Positions 17,779 to 40,080 of a stretch of DNA of 40,080 nucleotides are shown here, piece by piece; the stretch's first letter is position 1, and every line of letters starts with the position of its first letter. The stretch is from contig JASHNW010000057.1 of assembly GCA_030041435.1 (NCBI GenBank), forward strand, positions 1 through 40,080, given 5' to 3'. The notes beneath the pieces are model-generated. The model searched no databases and had not been told where the DNA came from. It saw nothing but the letters and a program-made list of their open reading frames with translations. Source of the DNA: Acidobacteriaceae bacterium. GTDB lineage: Bacteria; Acidobacteriota; Terriglobia; Terriglobales; Acidobacteriaceae. Made by a program: the position numbers and the translations under genes.

Positions 17779-17825
17779 CCCACCCTGTCGCGTGCAAAGG
17801 CAGACGCGACAAGGATGGGGCACCC
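17779..17825. repeat. 47-bp dispersed palindromic repeat, copy 1
   Basis: A 47-bp sequence bounded by CCCACCC and GGGGCACCC, with inner arms TGTCGCGT and ACGCGACA around GCAAAGGCAG. It matches the copy at 32574-32620 in 45 of 47 positions. It lies between genes and is of the REP-like intergenic type. Confidence 0.85.
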
Positions 17826-17848
17826 GGGGGGCGGGGAGCGGGGCAGGA

Positions 17849-18997: not shown

Positions 18998-20059
18998 ATG
19001 GGATCCCTGATGAGGAGCGCCGGGAAACGCGGTTCACTGCTGCGTGTGTGCCTGCTGTGTGTGGGACTGGCGGCGCTGCCGGCGCTGGCTTTGGGCCAGC
19101 AGACCGACGCTCTGCAGAGTGCAGACGAACCCAATTCCGCCGGGGAGCCACCCAGCACCGCTACGATTATCGGCACCGTCAAGGATACGAATGGAGAGGT
19201 GGTTCCGCAGGCCATGGCCGTGCTGACGACCGCTGTGGCGGAGCAGAAGTACACGGCGACAACGGACAGTAACGGCTTCTTTTCGCTGAGCGCGAGCCCG
19301 GGAACGTATGCGCTGGCGGTTTCGAGTCCGGGGCTGGTTTCGTGGACCTCCAGCCTGACCCTGACGGGGGGCGAGTATCGGGAAATCGCCGGCATCGTGC
19401 TGAAGGTGAATGCCGTGGTCTCGACGGTTCGGGTGGGAGGCTCGCGGGAGGAGATTGCGGCGGAGGAGGTGCGCGTGGAGGAGACGCAGCGGATTATCGG
19501 GGCGTTTCCTAACTTTTACGTCACCTACGATCCCGACCCGGTGCCGCTGACAACGAAGCAGAAGTTCAGCATGGACTGGAAGTTCTCCATCGATCCGTTC
19601 GCCTTTGTGGGGGCGGGCATTACGGCGGGCATCGAGCAGGCGCAGAACGACTTTTCCGGCTACGGACAGGGCGCGCAGGGCTATGGGAAGCGGTTTGGCG
19701 CGGCCTATGCCGACGATTTTGTGAGCAACATGATCGGGGGAGCGATTCTGCCGTCGCTGCTGCACCAGGATCCGCGCTACTACTATCGCGGGAAGGGCAG
19801 CGTGGCGGCGCGGGCGGCGTATGCGGTGTCGACCATTTTCATCTGCAAGGGCGACAACGGACACTGGCAGCCGAATTACTCGTTCATTGCGGGAAACTTC
19901 ATCTCGGGTGCGATTTCAAACCTGTATTACCCCAAACAGAGCCGCGGCCTCGCGATCACGCTCGACAATGGGCTGATTGCGACGGCGATGGGTGCGACCG
20001 GAGCGCTGGCGGAAGAGTTTCTGCTGCGGACGTTTACGCGGGGCGCGAAGGGGCAGTAA
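18998..20059 (+). CDS. Exported protein with carboxypeptidase-regulatory-like domain
   Basis: The protein is 353 residues with a signal peptide (LLRVCLLCVGLAALPALALG-QQ). A beta-sandwich of the carboxypeptidase-regulatory-like type follows (ATIIGTVKDTNGEVVPQAMA, SNGFFSLSASPGTYALAVSS). The C-terminal ~170 residues are a hydrophobic/aromatic domain (FSMDWKFSIDPFAFVGAGIT, LPSLLHQDPRYYYRGKGS, SFIAGNFISGAISNLYYP) that I recognise only as common in acidobacterial exported proteins; it may be membrane-associated. The start at 18998 was chosen because GAGAGGGG precedes it. A second ATG lies at 19010. Function unknown; an outer-envelope protein is likely. A cluster of hairpin repeats begins nine bases after its stop. 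Confidence 0.75.
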   Translation: MGSLMRSAGKRGSLLRVCLLCVGLAALPALALGQQTDALQSADEPNSAGEPPSTATIIGTVKDTNGEVVPQAMAVLTTAVAEQKYTATTDSNGFFSLSASPGTYALAVSSPGLVSWTSSLTLTGGEYREIAGIVLKVNAVVSTVRVGGSREEIAAEEVRVEETQRIIGAFPNFYVTYDPDPVPLTTKQKFSMDWKFSIDPFAFVGAGITAGIEQAQNDFSGYGQGAQGYGKRFGAAYADDFVSNMIGGAILPSLLHQDPRYYYRGKGSVAARAAYAVSTIFICKGDNGHWQPNYSFIAGNFISGAISNLYYPKQSRGLAITLDNGLIATAMGATGALAEEFLLRTFTRGAKGQ

Positions 20060-20067
20060 GGGCACCT

Positions 20068-20269
20068 GCCCACTCAAGCCAAAGGCGGGCTTGAATGGGC
20101 CACGCAGCCGCACGCCCACTCAAGCCAAAAGAGGGCTTGAATGGGCCACGGAGCCGCTCCAAAAGAGAGCTTGCATGGGCCACGGAGCCGCTCGCCCACT
20201 CAAGCCAAAGGCGGGCTTGCATGGGCCACGCAGCCCACTCAAGCCAAAAGAAGGCTTGAATGGGCCACG
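20068..20269. repeat. Cluster of five hairpin repeats (BIME-like)
   Basis: Five copies of a ~37-bp palindromic unit lie at 20068-20104, 20114-20150, 20159-20184 (left part shortened), 20194-20230 and 20233-20269. Each unit is GCCCACTCAAGCC, a 7- to 11-base loop, then GGCTTGAATGGGC and CACG; the arms pair over 13 positions with one mismatch. In two copies GCATG replaces GAATG. A sixth copy stands alone at 21292-21327. The cluster sits directly behind the gene ending at 20059 and may protect or terminate its transcript. Confidence 0.9.
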
Positions 20270-21258: not shown

Positions 21259-21291
21259 ACGCTTCGGCGTGGCGCTTGCAGGGGAGTCGAT

Positions 21292-21327
21292 CCCCACTCA
21301 AGCCAGAAGAGGGCTTGCATGGGCCAC
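21292..21327. repeat. Isolated copy of the hairpin repeat of 20068-20269
   Basis: The unit CCCCACTCAAGCC, AGAAGAG, GGCTTGCATGGGC, CACC matches the five clustered copies apart from a few positions. It lies between the Phd promoter and the remnant-PadR/permease operon. Confidence 0.85.
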
Positions 21328-31122: not shown

Positions 31123-31899
31123 ATGCATGCAGAACTCGAGGCGCTGATCCGCCTGCAAACCATCGATCAGGAGACTACGCAGCTGCGCGCGGAGATTGCG
31201 GCGCTGCCGAAGCGGCTGGCGACGCTGGAGGCGCGGCTGGTGGCGGAGAAAGCGGCTGTGGAAGCGGCGCAGAAGGCGCTGAAGGACGAAGAGGCGGCGA
31301 GGCGGCGGCAGGAAAGCGACCTGAAGGACCAGCAGCAGAAGATTGCGAAGTACCGCGAGCAGTCGTCGAAGGTGAAGACGAACGAGGAATTCCGCGCCTT
31401 CCAGCACGAGATCGAGTTTGCCGAGGCGGAGATCAGGAAGATCGAGGACCGCGAGCTGGAGGGCATGGAGCGGGCCGAGCAGCTGGAGCAGAAGCGCAAA
31501 GCGGCGGAGAGCCAGCTGAAGGACAACGCGAAGGCTGTGGAGATTGAGAAGGAAGATGCGCGGGCGGCCAGCGCCGAGCAGCAGAAGCGCCTGGAGGAGC
31601 TGACACGGCGGCGCGAAGAAGAGCGGAAGCTGGTCTCAGAGGAGTTGCTGCGGGTCTACGACCGGGTGTCATCCTCGTCGCGAGGAACGGGCGTGGCCTA
31701 CGCGCAGGGGCAGCGGTGCCTCGGCTGCCACATGGGGTTGCGTCCGCAGATGTGGAATCAGATTCGCGGGGGCGAGATTCTGACGTGCGAATCGTGCGGG
31801 CGGCTGCTGTATTACGATCCGGCGAAGGAGCCGCAGGCAGAGCCGGAGCCGGAGAAGCCGAAGCGCGGGCGGAGGGCGCCGGTTGCGGGCGTGGAGTAA
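31123..31899 (+). CDS. Coiled-coil zinc-ribbon protein (PF02591-type, CdsZ/FlgZ-like)
   Basis: The protein has 258 residues. The first ~185 form a long antiparallel coiled coil (heptads such as [20 protein letters not shown] and repeated Glu/Lys/Arg runs), including the family segment [20 protein letters not shown] four-Cys zinc ribbon follows (Cys199, Cys202, Cys222, Cys225 in QRCLGCHMG ... [14 protein letters not shown]). A Glu/Pro/Lys tail closes it. Relatives have been tied to secretion chaperones, flagellar assembly and nucleic-acid contacts. The role here is unknown. A dispersed repeat lies six bases downstream. Confidence 0.9.
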
Positions 31900-31904
31900 A
31901 ACAT

Positions 31905-31978
31905 CCCTCAGGGACTGAAGCTTTTTCCCCTGGGCCCCCTGCGGCACGACTGAAGTCGTGCCCTGATACAAAAACTTT
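31905..31978. repeat. Dispersed palindromic repeat, free copy C (same family as the TlyA insertions)
   Basis: This ~74-bp sequence begins ...CCCTCAGGGACTGAAG and contains the 20-bp hairpin GGCACGACTGAAGTCGTGCC (31943-31962), followed by CTGATACAAAA. The hairpin is identical to that of unit B (38798-38817) and differs at one base from unit A (38636-38655), both inside tlyA. This copy lies between two genes. Confidence 0.88.
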
Positions 31979-32025
31979 GCATGACGCGAGCGGCCGAGCC
32001 GATCCGGAGGCCGCAGCCTGGACCG

Positions 32026-32568
32026 ATGAAACGCATTGCCATCGACATGGACGAGGTGCTGGCGGATACGCTGGCCGAGCATATTGCCCGCTATAACCGC
32101 GATCACGGCGAGGCGATTACCAAAGCGGATCTGGAAGGCAAGTGGCTGTGGGACGTGGTGTCGATGGATCGCCACGACCGGCTGGAGGGTTATCTGCGCT
32201 CGGAGGATTTTTTCGAGGACCTGCCGGTGATGGCGGACAGCCAGCGCGTGCTGCGGGCACTGGCGGAGCGGTACGAGATCTTTATTGCGACGTCGGCGAT
32301 GGAGTTTCCGAACTCGTTTGGGCCGAAGTATCGCTGGCTGCGGCGGCATTTTCCGTTTCTCAATCCGCGGAATTTTGTTTTCTGCGGATCGAAGAGCATT
32401 CTGCACGCCGATTATCTGATCGACGATCAGCCGCGGCACTTTCGGACGTTTGTGGGGAAGGGAATCCTGTTCACGGCTCCGCACAACATGGGCGTGACGG
32501 GGTATCCACGGGTGGATAGCTGGGCGCAGGTGGAGGGGATGTTTTTGGGAGGCGGCGGACCGGTATGA
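32026..32568 (+). CDS. 5'(3')-deoxyribonucleotidase-like HAD phosphatase
   Basis: A 180-residue HAD-superfamily enzyme starting MKRIAIDMDEVLADTLAEH, with nucleophile Asp7 and acid/base Asp9. Motif II is IFIATSAM, and motifs III/IV include the downstream Lys of FGPKYRWLRRH and the pair DYLIDDQPRHF. This pattern is that of 5'(3')-deoxyribonucleotidases (NT5C type), which dephosphorylate nucleotide monophosphates. The upstream in-frame ATG at 31981 was set aside because the 15 added residues fall next to the repeat and are not family-like; the ATG at 32026 has GGA five bases upstream. Confidence 0.88.
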   Translation: MKRIAIDMDEVLADTLAEHIARYNRDHGEAITKADLEGKWLWDVVSMDRHDRLEGYLRSEDFFEDLPVMADSQRVLRALAERYEIFIATSAMEFPNSFGPKYRWLRRHFPFLNPRNFVFCGSKSILHADYLIDDQPRHFRTFVGKGILFTAPHNMGVTGYPRVDSWAQVEGMFLGGGGPV

Positions 32569-32573
32569 TGCGG

Positions 32574-32620
32574 CCCACCCTGTCGCGTCCAAAGGCAGAC
32601 GCGACAGGGATGGGGCACCC
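32574..32620. repeat. 47-bp dispersed palindromic repeat, copy 2
   Basis: This copy has perfect inner arms CCTGTCGCGT and ACGCGACAGG around CCAAAGGCAG, and differs from the copy at 17779-17825 at two positions. It lies between the convergent ends of the HAD gene and the third ADOP permease and might act as a terminator. Confidence 0.85.
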
Positions 32621-32646
32621 AGGTTCGGCAGGGGCGGGCACCGGAA

Positions 32647-35046
32647 TCACTCGCAGCGAATGGCGGCGACCGGGTCGAGGGATGCGGCACGGCGCGCGGG
32701 CAGCCAGCAGGCGATGAGTCCGACCGGCGCGAGCACGGCGGCGACGGCGAAGAAGACATCGGGGTCGGTGGGGGAGACGCCGATGGGCAGGCTGGCCATG
32801 AGACGGGCGGCGGGGATGGCCGCGGCCAGGCCGAGAGCGAGGCCGGCGCCAATTTGCCAGAAGCCGCTGCGCATGACGAGCAGCATGATATTGCGCATGC
32901 TGGCGCCGAGTGCGATGCGGACGCCTATCTCCTGGGTGCGGCGGCTGGTGGACTGCGCGAGCACGGCGTAGATGCCGACCGAGGCCATTACCAGAGCGAT
33001 GAGCGCAAATCCCGTGAAAACTTTGCTGAACAGGCGCAGATACCAGAGCTGGTGATCGACGGCCGCGGTGAGCAGGTAGGTGTCGCGGAGGGGAAGATCC
33101 GCGTCGATGTTCTGGACCGCGGCGCGGACGGCGGCGGTGGGGTTCGAGGTGGAATGGACGACGAGGGTCATGTCATTCCAGCCTTCCTGGCGCCAGGGCA
33201 GGAAGAAAAGCGGGCGGGGGTTGTTGTTGTTCAGGTCCTGGACCAGGTTGGCGCAGACACCGACGACGGTGACCCATCCCTCCGGCTGGTTTTTGTCGTC
33301 GAAGTAGCGGAAGCGCTTGCCGATGGCCGACTCGCCGGGCCAGAAATGCCTGGCCGCGTCGAGGGTGACGATGGCGGCAAAGTGGTGGGCGGCGCCATCG
33401 GTCTGGTTGAAGTCGCGTCCGAGGAGGAGCGGCACGCCGACGGTGGAGAGGTATCCGGGCGTCGCAACAACGAAGGAGATGCCGGGGCGATGAGCGCGGT
33501 CGACGAGGCGGTGTTCGATTTCGATATCGGTTTCGGGGCTGCCCAGGCCGGGCGGATTGGAGACAATGGCGGCGCGCGAGACGCCGGGGACAGCGTCGAG
33601 GCGGGGCAGGAGCCGATCGAAGAAGCGCTGGATGGTATCGGCATCCTTGTAGCGTTCGTGGGGAAAGTCGAGGCGGGCAACCATCAGCTTATCTGCGGGG
33701 ATCGATTTGTTCGATGCGAAGGTGCGAATGAGGCTGTGCACGAAGATGCCGGCGCCAGTAAGCAGAACGAGGGTGAGCGCGAACTGGCAGATCACGAGAA
33801 CGGCACTGAGAGTTGCGCCGCGATGACGCCCGACCGTGTGGCTGCCTTCCTGGAGCATCGCATTGAGGTCGGGGCGCGAGGAGCGCAGGGCGGGGGCGAG
33901 GCCGAAGACCAGACCGCTGAGGATGCAGAGTGCGGCGAAGTAGCCGAAGACGGAATAGTCCATGGTGAAGTGCACCCAGTAGGGGCGACCGACGGAGGAG
34001 GTGGCGAAATCGAACCAGCGCAGAGCGCCGAAGGCGAGGCCGAGGCCGGCGAGGCCGCCGAGCACGCTGAGCAGCACGCTTTCGACGAAAAGCTGGCGCA
34101 TGACGCGCCAGCGCGAGGCGCCCAGAGCGGCGCGGATGCTCATTTCGCGCTGGCGTCCGACGGCGCGGCTGAGCATCATGTTGGCGACGTTGGCGCAGGC
34201 GATGAGCAGCACAAAGCCAACCGAGGCGAGCATGAGCAGGAAGACCATTTTGATGTTGCCGCCGTTGTAGCGCTCGTGGAAGGACTCGACCAGAACGCCG
34301 GCGTTCCTGTTGGTATCGGGGTATTGTGCGGCCAGACGGTGGGCAATGGCGTCGAGCTCCGATTGCGCGGTGGCCATTTTGACGCCGGGCTTGAGCAGGG
34401 CGAAGGCCTGAAGCTGGCGATTGTCGCGTTTGAGGTCGTCCGCGGTGGGGATGAGGGACATCCACATTTCGACGATGGTGGGAAACGCGAAGCCTTTGGG
34501 CATGACGCCGATGATGATGGCAGGCGATTCATTGACGCGAACCTGGCGGCCGATGACGGAGGGCGATCTGTTATAGCGCTCCTTCCAGACGGTGTAGCCG
34601 ATGATGAGCGCGGGAGGGGCGCCGGGCTCGGCATCGGAGGGCTGGAAGTCGCGGCCGAGGATGGGGTGCATGTGGAGCATGGAGAAGATGCCGGTGGTGG
34701 CGCGCTCCATGTGGTAGGCCTGGGGCGGATTGCCGGGCTCGCCGAGGACACCTTCGAGGTCGGCGGCGCCCTGGAGGCCGTCGAGGGTGTGCGACTGCGC
34801 GCGCAGATCGAGGAGGTCGGCCCAGGAGATACGATTATCCCCGTCGCTGCGGGTCAGGTTGCGGCCGGCGACAGCGACCAGGCGGGCTCCGCCGGGAACG
34901 GGCACGGGCCGGAGCAGGGCCGCGTCCACAATGGTGAAGACCATGGTGTTGAGGCCGATGCCGAGGGCGAGGGTGACGACGACGGCAGCCGAGAACCAGC
35001 CATGGGCGCGGATCATGCGCAGGGCGAAGCGGAGGTCGTTGGCCAT
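32647..35046 (-). CDS. ADOP-type MacB-like ABC permease, short form without soluble prefix
   Basis: This 799-residue permease starts directly at MANDLRFALRMIRAHGWF, then AAVVVTLALGIGLNTMVFTIVD. The FtsX block carries LLIACANVANMMLSRAVGRQ and REMSIRAALGASRWRVMRQL. A second periplasmic domain follows, and the C-terminal block ends ACWLPARRAASLDPVAAIRCE. Unlike the other two permeases here, it lacks the soluble N-terminal prefix domain, and no PadR gene is next to it. The in-frame region upstream of 35046 is Arg/Pro-rich and not family-like. It is convergent with the HAD gene and tandem to korAB, separated by a GC hairpin. Confidence 0.92.
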   Translation of the reverse strand: MANDLRFALRMIRAHGWFSAAVVVTLALGIGLNTMVFTIVDAALLRPVPVPGGARLVAVAGRNLTRSDGDNRISWADLLDLRAQSHTLDGLQGAADLEGVLGEPGNPPQAYHMERATTGIFSMLHMHPILGRDFQPSDAEPGAPPALIIGYTVWKERYNRSPSVIGRQVRVNESPAIIIGVMPKGFAFPTIVEMWMSLIPTADDLKRDNRQLQAFALLKPGVKMATAQSELDAIAHRLAAQYPDTNRNAGVLVESFHERYNGGNIKMVFLLMLASVGFVLLIACANVANMMLSRAVGRQREMSIRAALGASRWRVMRQLFVESVLLSVLGGLAGLGLAFGALRWFDFATSSVGRPYWVHFTMDYSVFGYFAALCILSGLVFGLAPALRSSRPDLNAMLQEGSHTVGRHRGATLSAVLVICQFALTLVLLTGAGIFVHSLIRTFASNKSIPADKLMVARLDFPHERYKDADTIQRFFDRLLPRLDAVPGVSRAAIVSNPPGLGSPETDIEIEHRLVDRAHRPGISFVVATPGYLSTVGVPLLLGRDFNQTDGAAHHFAAIVTLDAARHFWPGESAIGKRFRYFDDKNQPEGWVTVVGVCANLVQDLNNNNPRPLFFLPWRQEGWNDMTLVVHSTSNPTAAVRAAVQNIDADLPLRDTYLLTAAVDHQLWYLRLFSKVFTGFALIALVMASVGIYAVLAQSTSRRTQEIGVRIALGASMRNIMLLVMRSGFWQIGAGLALGLAAAIPAARLMASLPIGVSPTDPDVFFAVAAVLAPVGLIACWLPARRAASLDPVAAIRCE

Positions 35047-35117
35047 GAATCCGGTACGCAGGCGGGGGACGAGCGGTTCCAGGGAGAAAAGACGAATGAA
35101 CCGCAGAAGCCGCGCCC

Positions 35118-35158
35118 GGGGCGCGCGAACCGAGTCGGCGGCGCAAAGGGCGCGCCCC
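35118..35158. terminator. GC-rich inverted repeat between korB and the permease
   Basis: GGGGCGCGC (35118-35126) and GCGCGCCCC (35150-35158) are perfect 9-bp arms 44 bp beyond the korB stop. There is no T-tract, so termination is plausible but unproven; it could also be a repeat. Confidence 0.4.
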
Positions 35159-35201
35159 CCCGCAGAGGCGGAGGGCGCGGTGTGGATTTCGACCGGGCCG
35201 C

Positions 35202-36101
35202 CTACATCAGCTCGTCGATAAATTTCTGAGCAACGGCGGGATCTATGTGAAGGGGGTAGTCGAGCATTGTCTTGCCGCCCTGAGTGACCGGCTCGGCTTC
35301 GTGGAGGGCGGGCAGGTCGGTGCGCTCGAAGAATTTTCCGATGGGGATCTCTTCGCCCCAGAGGGTGGACTTTTCGATGGCAGCCTGCCAGTCCGTCGGG
35401 TCGTAAGCGGGATTCTCTTCGAGCTTTTTGACGCGCGGACGGAACCACTGGAAGGTGTTGTCCTTGTTGTAGGTGACGCAGGGGCTGAAGACGTCGAGGA
35501 AGGAGAAGCCGCGGTGCTGGATGGCCTGCCTGATGAGGTCAGTAAGGTGTTTCTGCTCGCCTGAGAAGCCGCGGGCGACGAAGGTGGCGCCGGCAGCGAG
35601 CGCCATGGTGATGGGGTTGATGGGGCCTTCGATGTTGCCGTAGGGCGCGCTCTTGGTCTTCATGCCGAGGCGGCTGGTGGGCGAGGTTTGGCCGGTGGTG
35701 AGGCCGTAGATCTGGTTATCCATGACGATGTAGGTGAGGTCGACATTTTTGCGGATGGTGTGGGTGAAGTGGTTGCCGCCGATGCCGAAGCCGTCGCCGT
35801 CGCCGCCGGTGACCAGCACGGTGAGCTCATGGTTGGCCATCTTGACGCCCGTGGCGACGGGCAGGGAGCGGCCGTGGAGCGTGTGCATGCCGTAGGTTTC
35901 AATGAAGCCGGGGAAATTGGACGAGCAGCCGATGCCGCTGATGGTGACGATCTGGTGATTGGGAATCTGCAGCTCGACGAGGGCCTTTTGCACGGCGGCG
36001 AGGACGCCAAAGTCGCCGCAGCCGGGGCACCAGTCGGGATCGACGCGGCCTTTGAAATCCGCCATGGTGAGCGGTTTTGGGGTTTCAACAATTGTCGCCA
36101 T
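35202..36101 (-). CDS. korB: 2-oxoacid:ferredoxin oxidoreductase beta subunit
   Basis: The 299-residue beta subunit has the 4Fe-4S and thiamine-diphosphate features of the family: WCPGCGDFGVL (Cys25, Cys28), ISGIGCSSNFPGF, and the Mg/ThDP loop VTGGDGDGFGIGGNHF with NQIYGLTTGQTSPTS. SPCVTYNKDN carries the fourth Cys. It binds ThDP and passes electrons to ferredoxin while the alpha subunit completes the active site. Gene order and size match 2-oxoglutarate:ferredoxin oxidoreductases of aerobes and of the reductive/oxidative TCA cycle, rather than pyruvate-specific multi-domain enzymes. AGGAG is eight bases before the ATG, ten bases beyond the alpha-subunit stop. Confidence 0.93.
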   Translation of the reverse strand: MATIVETPKPLTMADFKGRVDPDWCPGCGDFGVLAAVQKALVELQIPNHQIVTISGIGCSSNFPGFIETYGMHTLHGRSLPVATGVKMANHELTVLVTGGDGDGFGIGGNHFTHTIRKNVDLTYIVMDNQIYGLTTGQTSPTSRLGMKTKSAPYGNIEGPINPITMALAAGATFVARGFSGEQKHLTDLIRQAIQHRGFSFLDVFSPCVTYNKDNTFQWFRPRVKKLEENPAYDPTDWQAAIEKSTLWGEEIPIGKFFERTDLPALHEAEPVTQGGKTMLDYPLHIDPAVAQKFIDELM

Positions 36102-36111
36102 TTTGGATCTC

Positions 36112-37890
36112 CTAAACCATGATTTCGTGGGCGGGGACGGAGAGCGTGGTGTCGCCGGCCAGTTGGTCGCGGACCGCTTCCACGATGTGGTGCGGCATGA
36201 AGGGCTCGCCGTCGTACTTACGGATGTGGCCGTCGGCGACGAAGCTGGTTTCGCTGCGCAGGTAGCGGGCGAACTGGCCGCTGTAGTTGTTTTCGACGAT
36301 GATGGTGCGCTTCGCGTTGCGGAGCTGCCCGACGATGGCTTCGCCGTGGAGAGGGACGAGCCAGCGAATCTGGAGTTGGTTCGCAGAAATGCCCTGGGCG
36401 GCAAGCTGGGCGCGGGCTTCTTCGATGACGCCCTGGGTGGAGCCCCAGCCGATGAGGGTGACGTCGGCGTCGGGCGGGCCCTGGAGGCGCGGCGGCGCGA
36501 TGGCGTCGGCGATGCCCTGCTCCTTGCGCATGCGTTTTTCCATCATGGCGCGACGCTTGCCGGCGTTGGTGTACATGTCGCTGATGAGGACGCCGTCTTC
36601 GTCGTGCTCGTCGCTGGCGACCACATGGGTGTAGCCGGGGACGCCGGGGATGGCGCGCGGCGAGACGCCGCTTTCCGTGATGAGGTAGCGCTTGTAGCTT
36701 CCGTCGCCGTGGCCGTTGGGGGATGTGATCATTGCGCCGCGATCGATGGGCGGGGCGAAGTCGAGGAGTTTGGGGTCGACGCTGAGGCGGCCTTCGGAAA
36801 GCAGCAGGTCGCAGAGGACGAGGCCGGGGACCTGAAACTTGTCGGTGACGTTGAAGACTTCGTGCATGAGCGTGAAGCAGTCGCCGATGTCGAGCGGAGC
36901 AGCGATGACGCGGGGGTAATCGCCGAAGGCGGCGCCCAGCATCTGCCAGAGGTCGCCCTGCTCGGTTTTGGTGGGGACGCCGGTGGACGGGCCGGCGCGC
37001 TGGCAGTCAATGACGACGATCGGGATTTCCGCCATGGCGGAGAGGCCGAGAGCTTCGGACATGAGAGCGAAGCCGCCGCCGGAAGTGGCGCACATGGCGC
37101 GGACGCCCGCCTGGGCGGCGCCGATGACCATGTTGACGACGCCGATTTCGTCTTCGACCTGGCGGACCATGATGCCGGCTTTGCGGCCGTTGGCGGCCAT
37201 CCAGTGCAGGACGCCGGTGGAGGGGCTCATGGGATAGGCGCAGTAGAATTTGCAGCCCGCGGCGGCTCCGCCCATGGCCAGCGCGGTGTTGCCGCTGAGG
37301 ACGGCGTACTTGTTGTCGGTCATGGGCAGGGGCGTGGAGAAGGCCCTGAAGTTCTGCGTGGCGTAGTCGTAGCCGGCGCGGGCGACGGCGATGTTTTCAT
37401 CTGCGACGGCGGCGGCCTTTTTGCCAAACTGCTCGCGGATGACGTCTTCGAGGGACTGGAAGCCGATGCCCATCATGCTGAGGGCGGCGCCGATGGCGAG
37501 GGTGTTCTGCGCCACTTTGTTGCGGGTGATATCGGCGAGGGTGGAGACGGGGAGCGGGCAGAGCTGGACACCGGCGGCATGTTCGCCGGGCTTGATGGCG
37601 TCGGCGTTGTAGATGCAGGCGCCGCCGGGACCGAGCAGGGTGAGATGCCGGTCCATGGTGTCCTGATTGAGGGGAATGAGGAGGTCGAGGGTGTCGCCCA
37701 TGTTGGTGACGGGATCGACGCCGGTGCGGATGGTGAGGAAGGTGTGGCCGCCGCGGATGATGGACTGGTAGGCGTTGTAGGCGTTGAGGTGCAGGCCGCG
37801 GCGGGAGAAGATTTTGGCGAAAATGTCGCCGGGTGTGGCGACTCCCTGACCGGCGGCTCCACCGATCCCGATGGAGAATGTATGGCTCAT
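36112..37890 (-). CDS. korA: 2-oxoacid:ferredoxin oxidoreductase alpha subunit with fused gamma domain
   Basis: A 592-residue protein fusing a gamma domain (1-~190: FSIGIGGAAGQGVATPGDIFA, NAYQSIIRGGHTF) to an alpha subunit (~200-592: NTALAMGGAAAGCKFYCAYP, MSPSTG, RQVEDEIGVVNMVIGA, ATSGGGFALMSEALGL, QRAGPSTGVPTKTEQGDL). The YPMSP-STG motif is the alpha-subunit hallmark. With the beta subunit it forms a two-gene enzyme that oxidises a 2-oxoacid, most likely 2-oxoglutarate, to the acyl-CoA and reduced ferredoxin. No ferredoxin (delta) gene is adjacent. GGGAG precedes the ATG at 37890. It probably supports the TCA cycle and could consume the 2-oxoglutarate made by the operon at the left edge. Confidence 0.93.
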   Translation of the reverse strand: MSHTFSIGIGGAAGQGVATPGDIFAKIFSRRGLHLNAYNAYQSIIRGGHTFLTIRTGVDPVTNMGDTLDLLIPLNQDTMDRHLTLLGPGGACIYNADAIKPGEHAAGVQLCPLPVSTLADITRNKVAQNTLAIGAALSMMGIGFQSLEDVIREQFGKKAAAVADENIAVARAGYDYATQNFRAFSTPLPMTDNKYAVLSGNTALAMGGAAAGCKFYCAYPMSPSTGVLHWMAANGRKAGIMVRQVEDEIGVVNMVIGAAQAGVRAMCATSGGGFALMSEALGLSAMAEIPIVVIDCQRAGPSTGVPTKTEQGDLWQMLGAAFGDYPRVIAAPLDIGDCFTLMHEVFNVTDKFQVPGLVLCDLLLSEGRLSVDPKLLDFAPPIDRGAMITSPNGHGDGSYKRYLITESGVSPRAIPGVPGYTHVVASDEHDEDGVLISDMYTNAGKRRAMMEKRMRKEQGIADAIAPPRLQGPPDADVTLIGWGSTQGVIEEARAQLAAQGISANQLQIRWLVPLHGEAIVGQLRNAKRTIIVENNYSGQFARYLRSETSFVADGHIRKYDGEPFMPHHIVEAVRDQLAGDTTLSVPAHEIMV

Positions 37891-38365
37891 ATCAGCTCCC
37901 GCAGAAAGACAGGGCATTGGCTGGTGAAGCGCTTTACTTCCCAGCCTGGGGACCCCGGCTTCCGGAATGCGGACCAGAATACACCCGCGAGTGGACGATT
38001 CGACAGGGGGTGGGCACAGAGCACAGAGCACAGAGCTCAGAGCGCGGAGCGCAGGGCTCAGGGATCAGGGTGCAGAGCGCGGAGCGCATGGATCAGGAAG
38101 CAGCGAAATTATTGCGGCAGTTGGGGGGGGGCGCGTTTTCTATGTCGCGCTTCATCTGGTGCGTGCTGCCGGCCGGAGATGGTGTTGAGCCAGAGGATGC
38201 GGCCCTTGCCGTCGAAAAAGGACGATGCAGCGGAAGGTGTCATGCGCGCGCGGCGAAGATCTTGGGGTGGTCTTCCCCTGTCTGCCAACGTCGGACTGGC
38301 AAGGGGGAACAGCCTCTAACGAGGCCAACGGCGGGTTTCCATGGGGCAACGGGCGGCCTCGGCGA
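37891..38365. other. Gene-free stretch between korA and tlyA with tandem and palindromic repeats
   Basis: About 475 bp without a confident gene. Around 38014-38095 a degenerate short-repeat tract of ACAGAGC/GCGGAGC words runs on. A palindrome lies at 38273-38309 (TTCCCC, TGCCA ... TGGCA, GGGGAA). A 44-codon minus-strand frame (38109-38243) contains FFDGKGRILWLNTISG and runs through a run of eight C; it could be a gene remnant, but I do not recognise it. Confidence 0.5.
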
Positions 38366-39457
38366 TTAAGGCCAGGTGGCGTGGAGGAGGAATTCGCGGT
38401 TGCCCTCGGCGCCGGTGATGGGCGAATCGATGACTTCGATGGCTACACCGCCCAGCTCTTCGATGCAGGCGCGGACGCGATCGATGGCGAGCTGATGCGC
38501 GGCGGGATCGCGGACGATGCCGCCTTTGCCGACGTGTTCGCGGCCGGCTTCGAACTGGGGCTTGATGAGGATGACGGCTTCCAGGGGAAGCCTTCTTTCA
38601 GGGGCTAAAGCCCCGGTTTCTTTGCTGGCCTGAACGGCACGAATGAAGTCGTGCCCCTGCAAAACACATGGGCCGGGTGGGCCTGCAAAGCTATCGGGTG
38701 CCTCCGTCAGGCTCTTCTCAGTCTGGTGCTGGATGGGGTCAGCTCCTGAAAGGCTTTCCTCAGGGGCTAAAACCCCGGTTTCTCTTGCGGTCTTATCGGC
38801 ACGACTGAAGTCGTGCCCAGATACAAAAGCGCCGGAATTTTCGGTATAGGCAGACTTTCCGGAGTTGGGAGGCTTGCAGGGAGTAGTCCCACCAGCGGAA
38901 TCCGTACCCGGCGCTTTCAGCCTTGCCGGTCCGGCGGTATCGGACGCGCGGCGGATAGCGGTGAGAACGGGAGGCAGCACGAGCGTGGCGGAGATGAAGG
39001 AGACATCGACGGAGAAGAAGCCGATGCCTGGCGGCAGGTCGCCGGGATTCAGCAGGCGAGCGTTGGTCCGTTCCATGAGGGTCACGCGGGGATCGTCGCG
39101 GAGGGATTGGGCGATCTGGCCGTAGCCGGTGTCGACGGCGAGGACGCGGACAGCGCCCGCCTGGAGCATGCAGTCGGTAAAGCCGCCGGTGGAGGCGCCG
39201 ATGTCGAGGCAGAAGCGGCCGTGGAGATCGATGCGCCAGTGGGCGAGAGCGGCTTCGAGCTTGAGGCCGCCGCGGCTGACGTAGCGGAGGTCGCTGCCGA
39301 GCAAGCGGATGGGCGCGTCTGCCGAGACGGCGTGGCCGGGCTTCGAGAGCTTCTGCTCGGCGACGAGGACGCGGCCGGCGAGGATGAGCGCCTGGGCGCG
39401 CTCGCGGGTGGGGGCGAGGCCGCGCTCGACCAGCAATTTGTCGAGACGAATTTTCAT
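38366..39457 (-). CDS. tlyA: TlyA-type rRNA 2'-O-methyltransferase with ~120-residue in-frame repeat insertion
   Basis: The 363-residue product begins with an S4-like RNA-binding domain (MKIRLDKLLVERGLAPTRER ... AQALILAGRVLVAE) and a FtsJ-like methyltransferase (SRGGLKLEAAL, LDIGASTGGFTDCMLQAGA, VDVSFISATLVLPPVLTAI, then VILIKPQFEAGREHVGKGGI and EGNREFLLHA). The catalytic set is Lys66-Asp151-Lys299-Glu355. Against M. tuberculosis TlyA (69, 154, 182, 238 from memory) the spacings agree at 85 and 56, but Asp-to-Lys is 148 rather than 28. So about 120 residues (~170-290) are inserted. The insert includes GHDFSRADKTARETGVLAPE and GHDFIRAVQASKETGALAPE, encoded by repeat units A and B. The frame is kept. 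TlyA methylates 16S/23S rRNA; whether this one is active is unknown. Confidence 0.9.
   Translation of the reverse strand: MKIRLDKLLVERGLAPTRERAQALILAGRVLVAEQKLSKPGHAVSADAPIRLLGSDLRYVSRGGLKLEAALAHWRIDLHGRFCLDIGASTGGFTDCMLQAGAVRVLAVDTGYGQIAQSLRDDPRVTLMERTNARLLNPGDLPPGIGFFSVDVSFISATLVLPPVLTAIRRASDTAGPARLKAPGTDSAGGTTPCKPPNSGKSAYTENSGAFVSGHDFSRADKTARETGVLAPEESLSGADPIQHQTEKSLTEAPDSFAGPPGPCVLQGHDFIRAVQASKETGALAPERRLPLEAVILIKPQFEAGREHVGKGGIVRDPAAHQLAIDRVRACIEELGGVAIEVIDSPITGAEGNREFLLHATWP
38595..38666. repeat. Dispersed palindromic repeat, unit A, inside tlyA
   Basis: It starts CTTTCAGGGGCTAAAGCCCC and contains GGCACGAATGAAGTCGTGCC (38636-38655). On the coding strand it encodes the peptide GHDFIRAVQASKETGALAPE of the TlyA insertion. 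Confidence 0.88.
38754..38828. repeat. Dispersed palindromic repeat, unit B, inside tlyA
   Basis: It starts CTTTCCTCAGGGGCTAAAAC and contains GGCACGACTGAAGTCGTGCC (38798-38817), identical to the hairpin of the free copy C. It encodes GHDFSRADKTARETGVLAPE in the same frame as unit A. Units A and B begin 159 bp apart, a multiple of three. Confidence 0.88.
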
Positions 39458-39529
39458 GGGCGAATCTTCGCGGACGGATTTTTGAGTGCTGCATCCAAAT
39501 AATTGCGGGTCCGTACCGATTATTCTCCG

Positions 39530-40080
39530 ATGGCATACGAAACTGCGAGCAACGATTCGGCGGCGGCGCGGCACTTTCATCCCCTGACGTGGATCGGGTG
39601 GCTGCTGGCGGTGGTGTTTTTGGCCGGTGCGCTTTGGCTGGCGCATCACATGGCCTCGATGCGAGGGCAACTGGACCTGGCCGAGGGAAATGCATCGCAG
39701 CTGCGCGTGCAGCTGGGGCGCGCGGAGCAGATTGTGAGCGTGATGACGTCGCCGAATGCCAGACACATTGTGCTGACGGAGACGCGGCAGGCGGAACATC
39801 CGGCGGGTCAGGTGAGCTGGCTGGAGAACAAGGGCGCGCTGGTGTTCATCGCGGCCGGGCTGCGGCCGTTGCCGGCAGGCAAGACGTATGAGCTGTGGCT
39901 GGTGCCGGAGCAGGGGAAAGCGCCGATTCCGGCGGGGCTGTTCCGGCCGGACGCGGATCGCGGGGCGACGGTGGTGCTGCCGCCGATTCCTGCGGATACG
40001 CAGGCGAGGCTGTTCATGGTGACGGAAGAGCCGGCGCAGGGGTCGACGACGCCCTCGCTGCCGATTGTGATGGAAGGGCA
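39530..40080 (+). CDS. Membrane-anchored RskA-like (anti-sigma C-terminal domain) protein, runs off right edge
   Basis: The frame is open to the last base, giving 183 visible codons. A short N-terminus leads to one membrane helix (WIGWLLAVVFLAGALWLAHH), a short coiled stretch (MRGQLDLAEGNASQLRVQLG) and then the RskA-type C-terminal domain (AGLRPLPAGKTYELWLVPEQ, IPAGLFRPDADRG, LFMVTEEPAQGSTTPSLPIV). In anti-sigma-K factors this domain is extracytoplasmic and follows a cytoplasmic zinc-binding anti-sigma domain. Here that cytoplasmic domain is missing: only ~20 residues precede the helix. No sigma factor lies to the left; tlyA is divergent, 72 bp away. The gene may be a degenerate or partner-dependent anti-sigma protein. 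Confidence 0.8.
   Translation, partial: MAYETASNDSAAARHFHPLTWIGWLLAVVFLAGALWLAHHMASMRGQLDLAEGNASQLRVQLGRAEQIVSVMTSPNARHIVLTETRQAEHPAGQVSWLENKGALVFIAAGLRPLPAGKTYELWLVPEQGKAPIPAGLFRPDADRGATVVLPPIPADTQARLFMVTEEPAQGSTTPSLPIVMEG

Follow-up and report, generated by a model that had tools for sequence, protein, structure and literature searches.

A palindromic insert in tlyA

The window, by which we mean the whole 40,080-nt stretch of DNA analysed, is contig C125 of an Acidobacteriaceae genome of 5.77 Mb in 134 contigs (G000). Its minus strand carries tlyA, which encodes a TlyA-family rRNA 2'-O-methyltransferase and whose reading frame contains no stop codon through a long inserted segment. Two copies of a short palindromic repeat are located within this segment, and another copy is found between ORFs elsewhere in the window. 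The features are:

38366..39457, minus strand: tlyA, gene for a TlyA-family rRNA 2'-O-methyltransferase with insert (363 residues plus stop)
38588..38935, minus strand: inserted segment in TlyA, approximately residues 175-290, found neither in solved TlyA chains nor in 17 of the 24 relatives read
38758..38829, plus strand: repeat copy 1 in tlyA, approximately residues 210-234, palindromes at 38763-38776 and 38798-38817 (covariance model E 1.2e-23)
38596..38667, plus strand: repeat copy 2 in tlyA, approximately residues 264-288, palindromes at 38601-38614 and 38636-38655 (covariance model E 8.7e-21)
31906..31974, plus strand: intergenic repeat copy, between an ORF ending at 31899 and an ORF starting at 31981 (covariance model E 1.6e-16)

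The tlyA start at 39457 was picked by alignment to relatives, and another ATG is present upstream at 39799. The predicted protein matched TIGR00478 (NCBIfam) with 226.6 bits (cut-off 185.8), the match being split in two stretches, and also has FtsJ and S4 Pfam matches. Residues K66, D151, K299 and E355, which we take to be the catalytic tetrad, are invariant in all 34 aligned TlyA proteins. Their spacings (85, 148 and 56) are those given by the initial annotation, which had also claimed some 120 extra residues between Asp151 and Lys299 on the basis of the Mycobacterium tuberculosis protein, where the tetrad is presumably at 69-154-182-238 and the Asp-Lys spacing is only 28. Alignment to a solved TlyA chain (PDB 7s0s_B) bears out the latter claim. 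Query residues 3-173 correspond to chain residues 21-192, and query residues 293-358 to chain residues 192-257; since chain residue 192 is matched by query residue 173 as well as by 293, about 119 extra residues enter at a single point.

The insert is made up of repeat units at about 38596-38667 and 38758-38829, with the remainder of approximately 38588-38935 being spacer. In a direct repeat-pair comparison, 69-nt copies at 38588-38656 and 38750-38818 were 81% identical. Reading of the open frame confirmed that both copies encode the same peptide, GHDF(S/I)RA...ETG(V/A)LAPE, in a common frame. In the AlphaFold model, the core blocks of TlyA mostly have pLDDT values >86, while residues 181-290 range from 32 to 63 (<50 at residues 189-269) and contain a single low-confidence helix (269-280, within copy 2). 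The insert is positioned between a helix ending at residue 174 and a strand starting at residue 292, and is modelled as a low-confidence, mostly unstructured loop, at a place where the initial annotation had anticipated a surface loop. The two repeat copies occupy one TlyA loop past the helix that follows Asp151, and the catalytic residues stay in place.

A dispersed repeat family

The repeat is approximately 72 bp long. Its two hairpins, CAGGGGCTRAAGCCCC and GGCACGRCTGAAGYCGTGCC, are unlike each other and separated by about 20 bp, and either CTGATACAAAA or CCTTCAAA comes next. An alignment of 35 copies gave the unit as CCTCAGGGGCTAAAGCCCC, about 20 variable bases and GGCACGACTGAAGTCGTGCC ahead of either ending. 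Twelve base pairs are predicted, one of which shows a both-sided change (A-U in 24 of 35 copies, G-C in 11), and rare forms with this varying pair broken were found elsewhere. The consensus hairpin energy is -21.8 kcal/mol. The left palindrome is degenerate in the intergenic copy at 31906-31974. Covariance model matches at all three places bear out the earlier description of two copies in the insert and a free intergenic one.

Searches of whole genomes illustrate that the repeat is a dispersed family, both intergenic and intragenic. A pattern for the right hairpin had 18 matches in the window's genome versus none for a reversed control pattern, and a broader hairpin pattern was present in all 12 genus genomes, with no matches to its control. 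With up to 150 candidates scored per genome, the covariance model (E ≤0.01), some matches of which overlap or are partial, yielded 70 matches in the window's genome and at least 28-149 per genome across the 12 genus genomes, including this one. A search of Rfam over positions 31700-39460 detected no family at the gathering score, and five matches up to E 1 were far below the cut-off.

To describe where copies lie relative to genes, we applied a strict codon test to 50 distinct full-length copies in the window's genome (three weak matches are omitted from this count). Two were in frame (TlyA copy 1 and a copy in a YdiJ-like gene), 12 had one coding flank, and 36 had no clear coding flank. The codon model detected no copy that breaks a gene, that is, with both flanks coding on the same strand and the frame broken (0 of 50). 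The model is home-made (two of eight seed pieces, which had several stops, were dropped before training), and its in-frame counts are a lower bound because it missed TlyA copy 2. Adding that copy and one in the PurF leader by direct reading gives at least four in-frame copies in three genes. By this weak model, the remaining copies look intergenic, as would be expected if insertions in genes were usually purged.

Filled and empty TlyA loops

To compare TlyA across relatives, we searched 61 genomes, 56 of which had a match. Thirty loci were taken and 24 loops read; eight of the 30 loci were missed by the first search pattern, two of these were read later, and the locus of G001 was unreadable. 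The repeat was present in seven loops and absent from 17. The window's genome has two copies. G008 has one, accompanied by degenerate partial copies, and G003, G007, G009, G010 and G011 have one each. Empty loops also occur within the genus, in G002, G004, G005 and G006 (4 of the 11 genus members read). Named records gave matching results, with the loop of L069 equal to that of G003, L071 to that of G011, and L070 to the empty loop of G006. The right hairpin at this TlyA site is of two subtypes, with one or the other present depending on the species. In a tree of the TlyA flanks, most inner branches are unresolved (8 of 11), and the supported ones require two or more gain or loss events; for example, G007 has the repeat and its sister G004 is without it. 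In G011 (L022, L071), the TlyA loop additionally contains a repeat of the GTCGGACGCGTGTCGGAC type (VRHASDRVRHESEAVRH), and G008 has a similar stretch.

Instead of mobile DNA, the segment could be a functional domain or regulatory loop that is conserved in TlyA, as its presence at the same site in seven species of one genus and its conserved peptide might suggest. The initial annotation had set against its own reading the case of a segment conserved in all acidobacterial TlyA proteins, which the 17 loops without it contradict. Given also that the repeat unit occurs in unrelated proteins and between genes, and that the structure model is unstructured and of low confidence, we consider a TlyA domain extremely unlikely. 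An assembly or sequencing artefact is scarcely credible. Most genomes are multi-contig (including the 134 contigs of the window's genome) and repeats break assemblies, but an in-frame insert lies at the same TlyA site in seven separate assemblies and in the named records L069 and L071, and peptide matches also occur in single-contig genomes (e.g., G067 and G081).

Repeat-bearing proteins other than TlyA

A peptide profile built from eight element peptides had at least 435 matches (E ≤0.1) in the 12 genus genomes, three of which were scored up to a cap. Most matches were within short frames, and genes were told from chance frames by the codon model and then by family models. Of 197 distinct full-length copies, which derive from fetched loci partly chosen by peptide matches, 13 were in frame according to the strict codon test (five in TlyA and eight elsewhere). 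Overall, the repeat was found in frame in 17 protein families, TlyA included, although this is not a random set, being drawn mostly from peptide matches with long frames. The initial annotation had anticipated such matches in unrelated proteins. The hosts other than TlyA are:

AlaRS: G002 and G004 in the genus, G117 and G163 in other genera
RecG: G004, G007 and G010
ThiL: G004 and G007
YdiJ/GlpC-like FAD/Fe-S protein: the window's genome and G006
Error-prone DNA polymerase (DnaE2 type): G008
Protein with a hydrazine-synthase-alpha-like domain, two repeat copies: G007
PurF, repeat upstream of the first Cys: G000, G003 and G004
FolC: G109 (other genus of the family)
Lhr-type helicase: G142 (other genus of the family)
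ArgRS and RsmB: G117 (other genus of the family)
GyrA, MnmG and RNase R: G014 (other genus of the family)
MurC: G126 (other genus of the family)
Agmatine deiminase: G143 and G151 (other genera of the family)

Long open frames at six further peptide matches (L231, L235, L236, L237, L368 and L369) were rejected as genes, and two loci were excluded from the 17 families (L364, with no family match, and L365, where the element precedes the matched region). In a broader sample of Acidobacteriaceae, the peptide profile matched at least 41 of 150 genomes and at least 33 of 79 genera, and in a phylum-wide sample it matched at least 10 of 247 genomes, all within Acidobacteriaceae.

Alignments to solved structures place the inserts of AlaRS, RecG, GyrA, MnmG, ArgRS and MurC between conserved segments. 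In AlaRS, one loop is filled in four species of three genera, between segments ending LTG and NASLRIIADH, at a site where chain 3hxu passes from residue 272 to 275. Among the genus AlaRS loops read, two of nine have the repeat and seven are without it, the window's genome having a short ELTGVKNDLGNASLRIIADH. The RecG site corresponds to residues 591 to 593 of chain 1gm5, and three of the ten genus loops read have the repeat (seven are without it). In GyrA, the element lies between query residues 675 and 711, at a point where chain 6rks passes from 738 to 742, and the inserts in MnmG, ArgRS and MurC are likewise between conserved segments. In PurF, residue 1 of chains 1ao0, 1gph, 6czf and 1ecb is matched by the Cys that follows the element. 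A leader is removed in known PurF, and the element would hence sit in the removed leader. We infer a translation start upstream of the element from the similarity of the leader among three species.

Some of these proteins contain further repeat-derived sequence. ThiL has several segments derived from the element in both G004 and G007, and in G007 (L165 and L233 being the two thiL loci) they are spread over more than one site of the protein. The AlaRS loop of G004 (L289) includes, next to the palindromic element, a CAGAGCACAGAGC-type stretch in the translated frame, and a similar repeat is intergenic at window positions 38014-38083. This loop appears to gather intergenic repeats of several kinds.

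How the repeat is read in host genes

The RecG loop is read in three modes, namely GHSFSRA from the minus strand in G007, YQGTTSVVP from the minus strand in G004, and GLKPTSFRAGYGTAEAVPFQ from the plus strand in G010. This is the best evidence that DNA insertion came first and frame filtering afterwards. DnaE2 of G008 reads the third minus-strand frame (ARLQPC). In these non-GHxF modes, the hairpins are spaced by 34, 36 and 37 nt, and each frame is open. With a spacing of 35 nt, one minus-strand frame gives GHGFSRAEK...GALAPEG across both hairpins. The spacing in the GHxF mode was 35 or 32 nt in all 11 counted non-TlyA copies and all seven counted TlyA copies, versus 48 of the 129 remaining copies. 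Fisher's test of the 11 non-TlyA copies against the rest gave P = 4e-5, a biased value since the peptide profile has one spacing. The comparison covers copies with both hairpins fitting the patterns (150 unique contexts), so that several in-gene copies are omitted (e.g., TlyA of G009) and the remaining group may hold unrecognized in-gene copies. The frame statistics are biased as well, because the profile by which most in-gene copies were found gives preference to a single frame and spacing. The commonest spacing among the other copies is 34 nt, and in-gene copies mostly have 35 nt. A tentative and somewhat doubtful extension is that the element has a coding-adapted form, in which protein-level selection on selfish DNA would have fixed a version with a benign peptide, and that the AlaRS and RecG loops were re-invaded across species and genera.

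A hairpin in mRNA might also be skipped by the ribosome, leaving proteins of normal length, for which the byp elements of yeast mitochondria and T4 gene 60 are precedents. The stable hairpins (-21.8 kcal/mol) within essential genes are compatible with this idea. Skipping, however, would not demand inserts that lack stops and maintain the frame, as the accepted ones do, and the RecG copies are open in each of their three modes with a hairpin spacing that fits. We therefore regard ribosome skipping as very unlikely. The repeat is probably translated as a harmless extra loop, judging from the reading frame.

A candidate mobilizing transposase

A gene on another contig of the window's genome (C106:893-1381, locus L228) encodes a REP-associated tyrosine transposase (RAYT), as predicted by REP_Tyr_transpos (NF047646; 109.2 bits, cut-off 80). 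A partial repeat copy (L228, 847-918) spans the 3' end of this gene and provides the final codons together with the stop, and a second copy, inverted, abuts the start of the gene. Across 20 Y1-transposase loci, sampled from 29 matches in the genus, five have the repeat on both sides (in G000, G004, G006, G008 and G011; in G000 and G008, one of the pair is partial). At three others a single or weak copy lies to one side, and the remaining 12 have none. A transposase gene flanked by repeats is the published REPtron layout (PMC3733652). The RAYT-type transposase most likely mobilizes the repeat in trans, a link that rests on one subset of the transposases, as 12 of 20 loci are without a nearby copy. 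At locus L062 (G004:C111, approximately 1887-2575), six or seven element copies in one orientation are located beside a Y1-transposase gene.

An alternative to transposition would be that existing copies spread by recombining with one another or by gene conversion, RAYT being uninvolved. It could explain the two hairpin subtypes at the same TlyA site and is compatible with copy arrays such as that at L062. Target-site evidence of transposition is absent as well; target-site duplications were sought in AlaRS and RecG alleles, which are too diverged for a judgement. Set against this, a quarter of the Y1-transposase loci (5 of 20) have the two-sided REPtron layout (PMC3733652), and insertions in new loops, such as that in RecG of G010, need a first arrival. 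We consider spread by recombination without RAYT unlikely.

From the dispersed repeat family, its in-frame positions in many hosts, the empty orthologues and the repeat-flanked transposase genes, we propose that the tlyA insert consists of copies of a short non-autonomous repeat that disperses through Acidobacteriaceae genomes, and assign this reading a probability of roughly 0.8. A RAYT-type tyrosine transposase, whose own gene is flanked by the repeat, would mobilize it in trans, and insertions in genes would mostly be purged. Copies would survive in loops, linkers or a leader peptide when read in a mode that has no stops and leaves the frame of the host intact, and they would be translated as a polar extra segment, usually GHGFSRAEK....GALAPEG. 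Both transposition by RAYT and the near-neutrality of the inserts are inferred from sequence.

Relation to known repeats

Rickettsia palindromic elements (RPEs), the precedent named in the initial annotation, were reportedly described by Ogata et al. in 2000 and in later work; the acidobacterial hosts are not known to be obligate intracellular bacteria. According to the accessible part of PMC2229807, RPEs are likewise short palindromes found between genes and in frame in conserved genes, with a tolerant host protein. The same source gives them as 105-146 bp long, with long stem-loops and terminal inverted repeats (PMC2229807), whereas the acidobacterial repeat is about 72 bp long, its two hairpins are small and separate, and a transposase gene is associated with it. 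The likeness, on a comparison by description, is one of mode of action. As in RPEs, the same repeat is found between genes and in frame in unrelated genes, and empty orthologues exist. These orthologues and the 17 host families support the initial interpretation as a protein-tolerated palindromic family comparable to the Rickettsia elements.

Intragenic REPs outside Rickettsia have already been published, within ORFs of several phyla (PMC3733652, accessible part). As described there, the hosts of intragenic GTAG/CGTC REPs include DNA repair genes, DnaE2 and tRNA synthetases, GTAG REPs are linked to RAYT genes, and repeats give stop codons to adjoining ORFs, all of which resemble the acidobacterial case. 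Sections 15 and 16 of that paper report no intragenic repeats for Acidobacteria. RAYT-associated REPs share with the present repeat the flanking of a RAYT gene by repeat copies. The element consensus is, however, without GTAG/CGTC at the hairpin foot; its flanks in our alignment (A2) are CTCA before the left palindrome and CTGATAC or CCTTCAAA after the right one. A REPIN consists of two inverted copies of one REP, whereas the element has two unlike palindromes, with loops that each carry CTRAAG in one common orientation. The element does resemble REPINs, as far as the accessible part of PMC3116915 describes them, in that two hairpins form one dispersed, RAYT-linked unit.

The TIRtrons (TIRYT) of Acidobacteria are similar in having tyrosine transposase genes flanked by inverted repeats, and one Koribacter versatilis repeat, that of ORF 1552, forms a repeated family (PMC3733652, accessible part). 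The GGGGWSAS motif published there does not fit the GGGGCTRA of the element, and the K. versatilis repeat was set beside the element by description (PMC3733652). The transposases themselves are classified in PMC6006769 (accessible part). Among titles and opening lines of abstracts, subscription papers and supplements excepted, we found no paper on protein-coding palindromes in Acidobacteriota. Elements of this kind, which work like RPEs and intragenic REPs, are already known, while neither this family nor its range of hosts in Acidobacteriota seems to have been described in searchable papers.

Protein-coding selfish DNA, best known from Rickettsia, is hereby extended to a large soil-bacterial family for which there is a candidate mobilizer. 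The inserts also provide a natural map of insertion tolerance in essential enzymes (AlaRS, ArgRS, GyrA, MurC, MnmG and RecG). As the same loop can be compared when empty, filled, and filled in different modes, the entry of palindromes into proteins without death of the host becomes testable.

Additional repeats in the window

Two other repeats were observed in the window. A second palindromic repeat is located at 17779-17828 and 32574-32623 (CCCACCCTGTCGCGT...GACGCGACAGGGATGGGGCACCC; 94% identical over 50 nt), with one copy intergenic, and Rfam detected no family at the gathering score for the copy at 32574. A third repeat family, at 20050-20268 and 21274-21327, comprises five copies with the core CCCACTCAAGCCAAAAGAGGGCTTGAATGGGCCAC over short overlapping ORFs.
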